Assembly: GCA_951812335.1 (NCBI GenBank)
Contig: OX638293.1
Coordinates: forward strand, 1,968,731 to 2,032,730
Reading direction: 5' to 3'
DNA length: 64,000 bases
Source of the DNA: Rhodothermales bacterium
GTDB taxonomy: Bacteria > Bacteroidota > Rhodothermia > Rhodothermales > VXPQ01
The notes under the pieces are model-generated. The model ran no database searches and was not told the DNA's origin. It saw only the letters and a program-made list of their open reading frames with translations. Each line of letters begins with the position of its first letter. Within the stretch, counting starts at the first letter, position 1. Below, in pieces: positions 9,132-56,623 of the stretch. Made by a program: the position numbers and the translations under genes.

Positions 9132-9200
9132 TAGGCAAATGAATTTCCAGGTTGGCGGTCACTGGACGGGGCCGGATAATGCGGATAAGTGAACGCATGA

Positions 9201-9662
9201 CCGGTTCGCATAAGACCTTAATTCGGCAACTACGTGTACGTAACAAAACCGCCCAAGGTTACACTGGGGTTTCCGTTCGGACAATTTCCTCCTCCGTGAC
9301 CAGGATGTCCATCCGGATATCGTGCGGCTCGGAGAGAACGGAATCAATCAGGCAGGCCTGATACGTCACGCCGATTCGGATAGCCTGAAGACCTTGCAGG
9401 AAGGTATCGTAATACCCTTTTCCATACCCGATCCGGTGCCCATCCCGCGCGCCCCCAAGCATTGGGACAATCACCGTATCGATCCGGTGAGTCGGTGCCT
9501 GCTCGCTTCCCGCAGGACGGGGAATCCCCCAGGGAGACTCCAGAGAAGGCTCTTCTCCCGTATACCGCACCGCGTACATGGATGGGACGTCGATATCCGG
9601 CACCAGGGGAAGGGCAACCGCCACGTCCTGCTCCCGGAGCCGGGCGATCAGCGAACGGATGT
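9201..9662. repeat. 462-bp tandem direct repeat, copy A
   Basis: This 462-bp block is repeated without a visible base difference at 9663-10124. It contains the 3' two thirds of the 5-formyl-THF cyclo-ligase gene plus 57 bp beyond its stop. The boundary sequence CCGGTTCG occurs at 9201, 9663 and 10125. Around it, the left flank (9185-9208) resembles the internal gene sequence (10110-10132) at most positions, so a short imperfect homology probably seeded the duplication. The period is a multiple of three. Confidence 0.93.
9259..9662 (-). pseudogene. Truncated duplicate of 5-formyl-THF cyclo-ligase gene
   Basis: Copy A of the 462-bp duplication carries codons for residues about 67-200 of the cyclo-ligase, identical to the intact gene, ending at the same stop codon. 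It lacks the first 66 residues, including the N-terminal RKQFRTYRQSL nucleotide-binding segment, although the C-terminal GYGKGYYD motif is present. An in-frame ATG at 9706-9708 in the junction could start a 149-residue product, but without the N-terminal lobe it should not bind ATP. It lies just downstream of the intact gene, so it would be transcribed but is most likely a fresh, non-functional duplicate. Confidence 0.85.
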
Positions 9663-10124
9663 CCGGTTCGCATAAGACCTTAATTCGGCAACTACGTGTA
9701 CGTAACAAAACCGCCCAAGGTTACACTGGGGTTTCCGTTCGGACAATTTCCTCCTCCGTGACCAGGATGTCCATCCGGATATCGTGCGGCTCGGAGAGAA
9801 CGGAATCAATCAGGCAGGCCTGATACGTCACGCCGATTCGGATAGCCTGAAGACCTTGCAGGAAGGTATCGTAATACCCTTTTCCATACCCGATCCGGTG
9901 CCCATCCCGCGCGCCCCCAAGCATTGGGACAATCACCGTATCGATCCGGTGAGTCGGTGCCTGCTCGCTTCCCGCAGGACGGGGAATCCCCCAGGGAGAC
10001 TCCAGAGAAGGCTCTTCTCCCGTATACCGCACCGCGTACATGGATGGGACGTCGATATCCGGCACCAGGGGAAGGGCAACCGCCACGTCCTGCTCCCGGA
10101 GCCGGGCGATCAGCGAACGGATGT
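9663..10124. repeat. 462-bp tandem direct repeat, copy B
   Basis: Second unit of the duplication, overlapping the 3' part of the intact cyclo-ligase gene. It appears identical to copy A through both the coding part and the 57-bp downstream flank. It ends at CCGGTTCG (10125), where the intact gene continues with CGCCGCCCGG whereas the two repeat starts continue with CATAAGACC. Perfect identity means either a very recent event or a collapsed/duplicated assembly segment. Confidence 0.93.
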
Positions 10125-10428: not shown

Positions 10429-10620
10429 AAGGATACTCTGATCAAAACCGCTTCGCTCAGCACTTCACGTTTGTGCGTAAAGCGCCCTTCGGGAGACTGC
10501 GAAAAGCACGCTGGCCGTGTCATTCCTCATTATGTGGGGCCTACCACATTGCTTCGTCATTCCTTGCCAGCCCACTCCTCGCAAGCCTCTGAACCTTGCG
10601 GACTTAATCAGAGTATCCTT
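10429..10620 (-). mobile_element. Dispersed TIR repeat (MITE-like), 192-bp medium copy
   Basis: Bounded by perfect 14-bp inverted ends (AAGGATACTCTGAT ... ATCAGAGTATCCTT). In reverse orientation it matches the full copies at 40317 and 56257: the 45-bp core (10517-10561) is identical to the 56257 copy, and the surrounding stem is retained with several G-T pairs. About 65 bp are missing between the two halves of the second hairpin, which is left as a compact GCGCTTTACG / CGTGAAGTGC stem. The left flank is TA. It lies between the divergent cyclo-ligase and ffh genes. Confidence 0.85.
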
Positions 10621-12150: not shown

Positions 12151-12960
12151 GTGGCAGTAAAACTTCGTTTGCGTCGCATGGGACGCAAAAAACTTCCGCT
12201 CTGGACTATAGTCGCCGCCGATTCGCGTCGTGCACGTGACGGCCGCTATATCGAAAAACTCGGCAATTACAATCCTCTCGTTAAACCCTCTTCGGTCGAT
12301 CTTAACGTTGAACGGATCCATTACTGGCTTGCGCAGGGAGCTCAGCCATCCGATACCGTACGTAATCTACTGAGTCGAGAGGGCATTTTACTGGAGCGGC
12401 ACCTTCGCCTCAAAGGGAAGCCGGAAGAAGAGATCCTGCAGGCGGTAACGGAGCATCGCGAACGACATGCGGCAAACCGGGCGACTTCCGCGAAAGAAAC
12501 TCCGAAAATCCGCCGCCGGAATGTGCTGGACGAAGAAAAGAAACGTGTGGCCAGGCAGGAAGCGGACACGGCAAAGCGCCGGAAGGAAGCAGAAGAAAAA
12601 GCAAGATTGGAGGCGGAAGCAGCTAAAAAGAAGGTGGCCAAAGAACGTATGGAGGCAGAGAAAGCCGCTGCCGAAGCTGCTGAAAAAGAGCAGGCTGCGT
12701 CTGCGAGCGGCGATGCCGAACAGAAAGATACTGTAAAGGAAACCCCTGCTGCGAGGGTAGACGCCGCGGGACAGGAAGCGTCTGCAGATACTCCTGAAGA
12801 GGGGGCTGCGTCCGCGAGCGGCGATGCCGAACAGAAAGATACTGTAAAGGAAACCCCTGCTGCGAGGGTAGACGCCGCGGGACAGGAAGCGCCTGAGACT
12901 ACCCCTGTGGAAGACGATGCTCCCGAAGAAAAGGCGGAAGAAAAAAAGCCGAAGAAATAA
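12151..12960 (+). CDS. rpsP: 30S ribosomal protein S16 with long charged tail
   Basis: GTG start at 12151 after AAGAGG. Residues 1 to about 80 are a normal S16 domain (VKLRLRRMGRKKLPLWTIV, then DGRYIEKLGNYNPL), a 30S assembly protein. The remaining 190 residues form a low-complexity extension. First comes an EK/RA-rich stretch likely to be a long helix (RRKEAEEKARLEAEAAKKK), then an Ala/Glu/Asp-rich region with a duplicated 37-codon unit. Extensions after S16 are common in Bacteroidota, but 269 residues in total is long even there. The tail is expected to project from the ribosome; its role is unknown. Confidence 0.95.
   Translation: MAVKLRLRRMGRKKLPLWTIVAADSRRARDGRYIEKLGNYNPLVKPSSVDLNVERIHYWLAQGAQPSDTVRNLLSREGILLERHLRLKGKPEEEILQAVTEHRERHAANRATSAKETPKIRRRNVLDEEKKRVARQEADTAKRRKEAEEKARLEAEAAKKKVAKERMEAEKAAAEAAEKEQAASASGDAEQKDTVKETPAARVDAAGQEASADTPEEGAASASGDAEQKDTVKETPAARVDAAGQEAPETTPVEDDAPEEKAEEKKPKK
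12694..12890 (+). repeat. 111-bp in-frame tandem repeat in the rpsP tail
   Basis: Two copies with a period of exactly 111 bp (37 codons), starting at 12694 and 12805; the second is incomplete (to about 12890). Each encodes AASASGDAEQKDTVKETP then AARVDAAGQEA. The copies differ at very few bases, so the expansion is recent relative to the rest of the gene. Confidence 0.9.
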
Positions 12961-37255: not shown

Positions 37256-37296
37256 AAGGATACTCTGAGCTTTGCGGACTTAATCAGAGTATCCTT
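37256..37296 (-). repeat. Dispersed TIR repeat, minimal 41-bp hairpin
   Basis: AAGGATACTCTGA and TCAGAGTATCCTT form a perfect 13-bp stem around a 15-nt loop, GCTTTGCGGACTTAA. The loop is the reverse complement of the loop in the 20675 copy apart from two bases, so this is the same minimal element in the other orientation. The left flank is TA. It sits between the GH2 remnant and proB; the rest of 37176-37404 shows nothing I can name. Confidence 0.85.
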
Positions 37297-38572: not shown

Positions 38573-39850
38573 ATGCTTGTCGAAGAAATGATCTCCGTGC
38601 ACAAAATGGGAGAAAAGGCGAAGGCTGCGAGCCGTTCGCTGGCCACGTTGGGCACAGAGGCAAAAAACGCGGCGCTGGCCGCCATCGCGGACGAACTGGA
38701 AAGCGCCTCCGCTACAATTCTCCAGGAAAATGCACTGGATATACAAGACGGGCGGGAGGCCGGGTTGTCCGAGGCTATTCTCGACCGTCTACTCCTCGAT
38801 GAAAAACGGCTCGGCGATCTGGCAAGCGATGTCCGTTCCGTGATCGACCTGCCGGACCCTGTCGGCGTCGAATTCGAAAGCCGCGTGCTCCCGAACGGGA
38901 TGCGACTCGTCAAACGCCGGATACCCCTCGGCGTGGTGGGCGTGATCTATGAAGCCCGTCCGAACGTAACCATCGACATTGCATCTCTGTGCCTGAAAAC
39001 AAGCAATGCCGTGATCCTTCGCGGAGGCAAGGAAACCCTGCGAAGCAATCTTGCCCTTGTCGCAGCCATCCGGCAGGCGCTGGAAAAAACAGGAGTACCC
39101 CCTGACGCCGTACAATACATTGGCGATCCCGACCGGGCCCTTGTTGAAGAATTGCTGCGACTGGATGCCCACGTCGATATGATCATTCCCCGCGGCGGCG
39201 GCGGGTTGCATAGGCTATGCCTGGAAAAAAGCACCATCCCGGTCATTACGGGGGGGATGGGGGTGTGTCACATTTTTGTAGACGACTCGGCCGACCTGGA
39301 GAGGGCGGAGGCCATCGTGGAAAATGCAAAGGTGCAGCGCCCGAGCGTATGCAACGCCCTGGACACACTCCTCATACACAGGAAAGTAGCCCATACTTTT
39401 TTACCGCCTCTGGCGAAGCGTCTCCACGCACAGGGCGTAACGTTCCGTGCAGAGCCGGAAGCGCTGAGCATTCTCGAACAGACAGGGGGCATTGCGTGTC
39501 AGGCCGCCCAACCCGGCGATTTCGACCGGGAATGGATGGCGCTGATACTGAACGTCCGTATCGTGGACAGCGTAGACGACGCCATTGAGCACATACAGAA
39601 CCACGGGACGGCCCACTCGGACAGCATCCTGACCAACGATTGGAAACGCGCCAATACGTTCGTCGACCGCATCGACTCGGCGGCCGTATTCGTGAATGCC
39701 AGTACGCGATTCTCGGACGGCGGCCAATTCGGCCTGGGGGCCGAAGTAGCCGTCAGCACCCAAAAACTGCATGCCCGAGGCCCGATGGGACTGGAAGAGC
39801 TAACGAGCTACAAGTGGATCGGGATCGGAAATGGACATATCCGGGCTTAA
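38573..39850 (+). CDS. proA: Gamma-glutamyl phosphate reductase
   Basis: 425 residues, aldehyde-dehydrogenase fold. [18 protein letters not shown] is the NADPH-binding block, [12 protein letters not shown] follows, and [16 protein letters not shown] contains the catalytic cysteine. The C-terminal [14 protein letters not shown] is the family hallmark. It reduces gamma-glutamyl phosphate made by ProB to glutamate semialdehyde on the way to proline. A second ATG 15 bp downstream (38588) could also serve as the start. The 3' end meets the convergent OsmC gene with a 4-bp overlap. Confidence 0.96.
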
Positions 39851-40272
39851 CCCGACTGGAGCGTCGCGGCCAGCGTGATGTTCGTCCCCTGAAACAACTT
39901 CGAGACCGGGCAATTGGATTTTACTCCCTCGGCCAGCTCCTGAAAAGTCGATTCGTCGATGCCCGGAACGTCGGCCTTGATCGTCAGATCGATCTGCGAA
40001 ATGGCGATACCTCCTTCCACTTTTACCAGATGGACCCCCGCAACCGTATGTACCCGGTTTGGCGTATATCCTGCTTTCGCCAGTTCGTTTGAAAGCGCCA
40101 TCGAGACACATCCTGCGTGGCCTGCGGCAAGGAGTTCTTCCGGATTTGTTCCGGCGCCATCTTCAAAACGGGAAGCAAAGGAATACGGTACGTGCTCGTC
40201 CAGAACCGTCACGTTGCCTTCTCCATTTATCAAGTCGCCTTGCCAAACGGCTTCGGCTGTACGTACAGGCAT
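39847..40272 (-). CDS. OsmC/Ohr family peroxide-detoxifying protein
   Basis: 141 residues from ATG 40272. The two family cysteines are in [15 protein letters not shown] and [13 protein letters not shown], spaced as in OsmC, where they reduce organic hydroperoxides through a thiol/disulfide cycle; [10 protein letters not shown] is the typical lead-in. Closest in style to the OsmC (rather than Ohr) branch because of the [14 protein letters not shown] spacing. It is a monocistronic minus-strand gene convergent with proA and divergent from pepF; a full-length dispersed repeat fills its upstream region, starting about 45 bp before its start codon. Confidence 0.92.
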
Positions 40273-40316
40273 GATCATCGTGGAATGTTTAATGGAATCA
40301 CGTTCGGAATGCGTTT

Positions 40317-40573
40317 AGGATACTCTGATTAATTCTGCAAAGTTCAGAGGCTTCGAGAAGTGCGCTGGCAAGAAATGACGAAGCAATGTGGCAGGCCCCA
40401 CATAATGAGGAATGACACAGCCAGCGCGCTTCTCGAAGCCTACCGAAGGGCGCTTCATGTACGCCATGCACCAAATCACAGCATTTTTCGCTGATTTCAA
40501 CGACATCGTTATGATGTCCTGTGCGCACGAACATGAAGCGCTGATCGAAGTAGAGTTAATCAGAGCATCCTTA
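40317..40573 (+). mobile_element. Dispersed TIR repeat (MITE-like), full copy of about 257 bp
   Basis: Ends are AGGATACTCTGATTAA and its near-inverse TTAATCAGAGCATCCTT. Inside, arms at 40348-40369 and 40420-40441 form a 22-bp stem with a single G-T pair. The stem encloses a 45-bp core (40374-40418) that is nearly identical in three copies and itself folds on ATGTGG / CCACAT. A second hairpin pairs GCGCTTCATG with CATGAAGCGC. The right flank is TA and the left TT. No open reading frame of meaningful length is present. It lies between divergent osmC-like and pepF genes and probably contains or displaces their promoters. Confidence 0.88.
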
Positions 40574-40645
40574 AATATACGCACTCTCCGAAATGCATTT
40601 CCCGGTAAATTTCAGGAAAACACGTTCGTATAACCCCTTTTCCCA

Positions 40646-43588: not shown

Positions 43589-43614
43589 AAGGATGCTCTG
43601 ATCAAGTCCGCAAA
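43589..43614 (+). repeat. Solo left terminus of the dispersed TIR repeat
   Basis: AAGGATGCTCTGATCAAGTC then CGCAAA matches the left end of the full copies (best with 56257) for 26 bp, after which similarity stops. No matching right terminus is found before hemA at 43752. It is probably a decayed or 3'-truncated copy. It lies 9 bp before the start codon of the M24 peptidase gene, in the hemA divergent promoter region (43581-43751). Confidence 0.75.
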
Positions 43615-46944: not shown

Positions 46945-47078
46945 AGGATATTCTGATCAGAACCACTTCGCTCTCGCAAATACAGGACATTATGATTCTA
47001 TCGTCTGGAATCAGCGGGAAACAGCTTCGCGGGCGTGACGCGCCCTTCGGGAGGCTACGAACTTAATCAGAGTATCCT
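46945..47078 (-). mobile_element. Dispersed TIR repeat, 134-bp deletion copy forming the thiE 3' end
   Basis: Ends are AGGATATTCTGATCAG and TTAATCAGAGTATCCT. In reverse orientation it retains the right part of the full element (the AATCAGCG-containing region and the CGCCCTTCGGGAGGC block) but lacks the conserved 45-bp core and its 22-bp stem. It sits between the convergent genes hemD and thiE, and its right end contains the TAA stop codon and last codons (GYSD) of thiE. Confidence 0.82.
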
Positions 47079-56181: not shown

Positions 56182-56256
56182 TCTGAACCGTCGCCAGGAA
56201 AATTGTGCATTTTTTTCTGCAATTGACCGGCGCACTCAATATCTTCATAGTCGCTT

Positions 56257-56515
56257 AAGGATGCTCTGATTAAGTCCGCAAAGATTCAGAGGCAGAAAGG
56301 GGTGCGCTGGCAAGGAATGACGAAGCAATGTGGTAGGCCCCACATAATGAGGAATGACACAGCCAGCGCGTCTCTGTCTGCCTCCCGAAGGGCGCTTCAC
56401 GGCCGAGACGACCCGAATCCGCCGTATTTTTCGCTGATTTCAACGATGCAAGCATGTTGTCCTTTACGCGTGAAAGTGAAGCGCTGATCGAAGTGGACTT
56501 GATCAGAGCATCCTT
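56257..56515 (+). mobile_element. Dispersed TIR repeat (MITE-like), full copy of 259 bp
   Basis: Ends AAGGATGCTCTGATTAAGTC and its near-perfect inverse are flanked by TA on both sides. The 45-bp core (56316-56360) differs from that in the 40317 copy by one base. The enclosing stem (56290-56311 with 56362-56383) has a different sequence from the 40317 copy in its lower half (CAGAAAGGGG instead of CTTCGAGAAG), yet it still pairs with 18 Watson-Crick pairs, three G-T pairs and one mismatch. The second hairpin is GCGCTTCAC / GTGAAGCGC. It lies between the ABC ATPase and DinB genes. Confidence 0.88.
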
Positions 56516-56623
56516 AAAATGTTCCATGCCATAAATCTATACTGTACATGTATGGCGCCTCCGCGCAGCATGATCGATTGCACGGAATTGTGCGCGTATT
56601 CCCCATGACCACCTCTCGAAAAC

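Follow-up and report, generated by a model that had tools for sequence, protein, structure and literature searches.

The window analysed here, a 64,000-nucleotide stretch of a 2.69-Mb, single-contig Rhodothermales genome, carries members of a MITE family of an IS5-type insertion sequence, in which two hairpins lie inside a stem closed by the terminal inverted repeats (TIRs), both of them backed by paired changes. Comparison of the copies suggests as the best explanation, and in our view a probable one, that the MITE carries a cargo of two palindromes and that one of these, the core hairpin, is kept foldable on one strand as RNA. The ends of the element read GGATAC...GTATCC and are flanked by a 4-bp target duplication, and full copies measure 253–257 bp, their second hairpin having a spacer of ∼72–75 nt. 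The features within the window are as follows.

40318–40570, plus strand: full MITE copy, 253 bp, GGATAC...GCATCC, set between divergent genes for an OsmC-like protein (minus strand) and an M3 peptidase (plus strand); site empty in OX638295.1
40314–40317: left target-site duplication (TSD) TTTA, with its right counterpart TTAA at 40571–40574
40318–40338, plus strand: left TIR, pairing with 40550–40570
40550–40570, minus strand: right TIR, pairing with 40318–40338
40348–40443, plus strand: core hairpin, with a conserved purine-rich internal loop (AAGAAATGACGAAGCA / AATGAGGAATGAC) and the inner helix ATGTGG/CCACAT
40450–40541, plus strand: second hairpin, arms GCGCTTCATG (40450–40459) and CATGAAGCGC (40532–40541), spacer ∼72 nt
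56259–56513, plus strand: full MITE copy with an exact TSD, TTAA/TTAA (56255–56258 and 56514–56517), flanked by two plus-strand genes
56392–56400 and 56476–56484: second-hairpin arms of the 56259 copy, GCGCTTCAC with GTGAAGCGC
10431–10618, minus strand: shortened copy, 188 bp, with the core hairpin and a second hairpin of 6-nt loop (spacer deleted)
10476–10485 and 10460–10469, minus strand: second-hairpin arms of the shortened copy, GCGCTTTACG with CGTGAAGTGC, forming eight Watson–Crick and two G-U pairs
46946–47077, minus strand: core-less copy; fused TIRs only in OX638295.1
48815–48913, minus strand: core-less copy; site empty in OX638295.1
20676–20712, plus strand: TIR-only mini-hairpin
37258–37294, minus strand: TIR-only mini-hairpin
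43591–43611, plus strand: solitary TIR remnant

The original prediction was that full copies, placed at 40317, 56257 and 10429, contain a second hairpin besides the core, with arms that vary in step. The arms were found in all three, the first two being full copies and the third the 188-bp form, in which the spacer of that hairpin is largely missing. The minimum-energy folds of the 40318, 56259 and 10431 copies each contained the TIR stem and both hairpins (−122.8, −126.0 and −96.7 kcal/mol; z = −10.7, −10.2 and −9.7, respectively), and no shuffled sequence was equally stable; for the first copy the opposite strand gives a comparable fold. RNAalifold applied to 40 genomic copies likewise returned both hairpins within the TIR stem. 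In this alignment 97.9% of cells paired (94.4% in shuffles), 94 cells had both sides changed against 23.9 in shuffles, a value reached by none of 500 shuffles, and changes on both sides were seen at 14 pairs (7.6 in shuffles), while sliding the structures lowered pairing to 32–45%. For the second hairpin, 3 of 10 pairs had both sides changed. Covariation was above chance, as expected of a structured RNA, and the predicted concerted variation of the arms was thereby borne out.

The same prediction set the element apart from a simple REP hairpin, and rightly, since it is a 253–257-bp TIR element with a TSD and an IS5-family parent, whereas REP/BIME elements are single short hairpins with neither TIR nor TSD. 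When the 4 bp on either side of 37 copies were compared, 14 were exact duplicates against 3.9 for re-paired flanks (0 of 1,000 shuffles as high) and identity was 80% against 54%; in the same flank test, duplications of other lengths gave no signal. OX638295.1, a Rhodothermales MAG and the closest relative, is 91–95% identical around the insertion sites, yet has empty sites for the 40318 and 48815 copies, only fused TIRs for the 46946 copy and one copy absent from the window. Two further relatives, G001 and G002 (94–95% identical), showed additional insertion differences and one deletion remnant. In OX638295.1 (referred to below as G004), TIRs of the form GGATACTCTGATTTAATCC...GGATTGATCAGAGTATCC enclose a remnant of an IS5-family transposase (L144:1175–1840); three loci there have such a remnant followed after ∼200 bp by a matching right TIR, and both TIRs are kept only at this one. 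The NCBIfam IS5 model NF033581 matched the remnants with E=2.3e-40 for the C-terminal part and 2.2e-12 for the N-terminal part, both under the full-protein cut-off, the fragments being truncated. Of this transposase, the genome that holds the window retains just 29 residues, and an intact parent IS was not found. An IS701 (DDE_5) parent had no matches in six genomes. Because of the TSD, the empty sites and the TIR-bounded transposase remnants that match the IS5 model, these short elements, which have TIRs in common with a decayed IS5-family element and lack a transposase gene, constitute a family of MITEs belonging to an IS5-type element, and that enzyme would have mobilised them. Separately, the sole above-cut-off DDE_Tnp_1 transposase remnant in the window's genome (G000:C1:636280–636654) has no matching TIRs within 3.4 kb.

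A TIR stem is present in any DDE transposon, and the main alternative to our reading, which we consider rather unlikely, is that this is a plain MITE whose palindromy arises entirely at the DNA level, from TIRs serving the transposase and from intra-strand repair or template switching, with no role for RNA. The two readings differ in what they expect of mismatched pairs: G-U on one strand is A-C on the other, so that a structure kept only in DNA should show both at equal frequencies. Among 119 copies there were 679 G-U and 84 A-C cells, the two being about equal in slid pairings, and at least 10% of copies had G-U at 11 pairs and A-C at none. On a parsimony tree of these copies, changes from Watson–Crick to G-U outnumbered those to A-C by 28 to 5 on internal branches and by 113 to 71 at the tips, slid pairings lying mostly near 1:1, and compensatory double changes numbered 33 against 0–3 in slid pairings. 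Mutation itself is without strand bias, since unpaired C>T (191) and G>A (181) were equal. With 138 copies the internal branches gave 42 against 8 over all pairs (p=1e-6), a signal that persisted without the six pairs in which G-U is the common state. These counts are to be read with the caution that the copies share ancestry, that ancestral states were guessed by parsimony and that one tree serves for all pairs.

Divided by module, the internal-branch counts (138 copies) located the bias in the core hairpin, with 29 changes to G-U and none to A-C (p=3.7e-9), whereas neither the TIR stem (11 against 5) nor the second hairpin (2 against 3) had a clear bias. The direction was the same when genomes were taken separately (12 against 0 for the core in the window's genome alone, 8 against 1 in its relatives alone). 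Strand-specific tolerance of wobble pairs is thus evident in the core only. The core also has an unpaired loop that is highly conserved, its two halves averaging 98% and 94% conservation and 88% of its columns reaching at least 97%, compared with 76% for the second-hairpin spacer. The 29-to-0 bias and the conserved loop speak against a DNA-level cause of this kind, which treats G-U and A-C alike. A plain MITE does fit the other modules, since MITE status is solid, TIR stem and second hairpin lack a clear strand bias, and the second hairpin has a spacer that one subfamily carries inverted and others have lost. Given the strand bias and the conserved loop, it is most likely that the core hairpin folds as an RNA made from one of the strands. 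The closed multibranch fold that had been proposed is therefore upheld in so far as two hairpins do lie in a paired TIR stem and the whole can fold; as a single working RNA it is not supported, the strand signature being confined to the core.

We therefore favour an element in which transposase-type ends would enclose two palindromes as cargo. Of these the core, with its conserved loop, has stayed able to fold on just one strand, as would be expected if it worked as RNA whenever transcription runs through an insertion. No explanation at the RNA level would be needed for the second hairpin or for the TIR stem, the latter because transposase ends account for it. The folded core would probably alter the processing or stability of read-through transcripts, or bind a protein through its loop. 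By reading of the sequence, this loop bears GGAATGAC on both strands, and we raise only tentatively the further idea that the core is a new protein-binding structured-RNA motif, whose near-invariant internal loop has GGAAUGAC on each strand, and that an IS5-mobilised MITE spreads it to ∼90 intergenic sites. CsrA binding at the GGA motifs of the loop was discarded as a candidate, the six genomes having no CsrA.

The surroundings of the copies bear on these possibilities. All 98 copies lie outside predicted genes, the upstream gene reads away from the element in 47 of 68 cases (against 21; p=0.002), and between co-directional genes the plus strand is antisense in 30 of 45 cases and sense in 15 (p=0.036). 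All these counts depend on basic in-house gene predictions, which overlooked at least the OsmC-like gene (39847–40278). The antisense tendency disfavours a routine role in the mRNA of neighbouring genes, and the mechanism is therefore one that we infer. The minus strand of the element is depleted of stops, with 64 open frames against 8 on the plus strand in 119 copies and no codon periodicity. A coding element was rejected, as the minus-strand frames, although open in many copies, differ in frame and variability lacks a 3-base period. The window also holds repeats of other kinds, namely 300-nt direct repeats (9184–9483 and 9646–9945; 99% identical, 462 nt apart) overlapping minus-strand ORFs, and a tandem 111-nt repeat (12686–12907; 92% identical) inside the ORF at 12151–12960.

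Thirteen sites hold the element in both the window's genome (G000) and G004, and at ten of them (among these L233/L309, L174/L288 and L242/L298) element identity reaches 98.9% over 2,472 sites, compared with 84.9% for flanking four-fold sites, 92.5% for intergenic DNA and 97.4% for second codon positions. This near-identity would suit a third reading, in which single copies are host-adopted regulatory repeats retained for their service to adjoining genes. We think this improbable. Most copies are not common to both genomes, two sites hold different family members in the two, and in the one shared G000–G005 copy examined, divergence as read from the alignment is similar to that of the flanks. 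Moreover, the spacer that varies among paralogues is unchanged too (4 differences in 670), which points to recency rather than constraint, and constrained and free parts of the ten elements do not differ in divergence. In most pairs the copy closest to an element was its ortholog, and independent insertion was rejected as the cause for these. At several loci the boundary of identity is sharp at the element edge, so that a recombination tract is not established as the cause. Recent exchange and constraint are the two candidate causes for the ten shared insertions. Read by eye, the 29 differences among these ten true orthologous insertions keep and break pairs about equally, and there is therefore no clear structural selection on resident copies. 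The RNA signal would instead act on the lineages that yield new copies, not on every resident copy.

The other three shared sites differ in content. L173 and L276 occupy the same site with the whole element in opposite orientation and in a different length form (L173:1080–1269 and L276:1019–1275), the pair L182/L312 differs by an inverted spacer in the second hairpin, and the pair L268/L305 by deletion of that spacer. An inverted spacer occurs in 10 of 148 copies (L151, L155, L156, L159, L162, L164, L165, L169, L312 and L313). These form one subfamily, 97.7% alike, which indicates few inversion events and rules against frequent flip-flop of the spacer. Since the inverted spacer marks this 10-copy subfamily, a different member of the family having come to occupy the site accounts for L312 better than a flip in place would. 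Least probable of all is that the folded strand is single-stranded DNA recognised in replication or movement, as for integron attC sites and IS608 ends, for although G-T in DNA is likewise better tolerated than A-C and would fit the strand bias, the TSD, TIRs and IS5-family parent indicate double-strand DDE transposition, and no replichore-linked orientation was found however the chromosome was halved (permutation p=0.6).

Pattern searches, with inspection of the stretches around the matches, gave 90 matches to the core in the window's genome (∼90 core-bearing copies) and 416 to the TIR (∼208 TIR pairs). Among the genomes sampled the element is restricted to one genus, being present in 6 of 6 of its genomes and in none of 54 others of the order; of 394 genomes of the phylum, 4 have the core loop, and these four belong to the genus. 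Rfam covariance models gave no match even at E≤5, and the family appears to be new as far as searched.

The element resembles IS5-family MITEs in being non-coding, in its TIRs and 4-bp target duplication, and in that the TIRs are common to an IS5-family transposase element; it differs in an interior that is not IS-derived, in a core hairpin with RNA-sense covariation and in its restriction to a genus. To our knowledge, Correia/NEMIS, ERIC and YPAL have no evident sequence relation to the present family. They too are 100–200-bp intergenic MITEs with folding transcripts, and effects of RNase III or RNase E are known for Correia and ERIC (PMC2229807, PMC10969869), but each is described as one long stem-loop whereas the present element has two arms in a closed stem. 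Two hairpin arms are also predicted in transcripts of the Caulobacter CIR repeats, where they are joined by a linker, with no closure by a 5′/3′ TIR stem, and where a GANTC site is present (PMC2229807). Pneumococcal BOX and RUP are likewise modular, folded, mobilised in trans and of many length variants, although BOX, compared by description only, is built of A/B/C modules and belongs to another phylum (PMC3049150). The bcr1 repeat of Bacillus cereus is similarly a group-restricted mobile repeat of tens to 130 copies, but has a TTTAT motif and a proposed recombination-like mobility (PMC6542083).

A fold kept as RNA can thus be separated from a DNA palindrome by the balance of G-U and A-C changes on a tree of copies, and here the strand test places the RNA signal in a single module. 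For bacterial MITEs, as far as we know, folded transcripts have often been predicted, while whether the fold is preserved as RNA or as DNA has rarely been tested. In closely related genomes the family, moreover, provides insertion sites that are shared, empty or rearranged, as a natural set for comparison.
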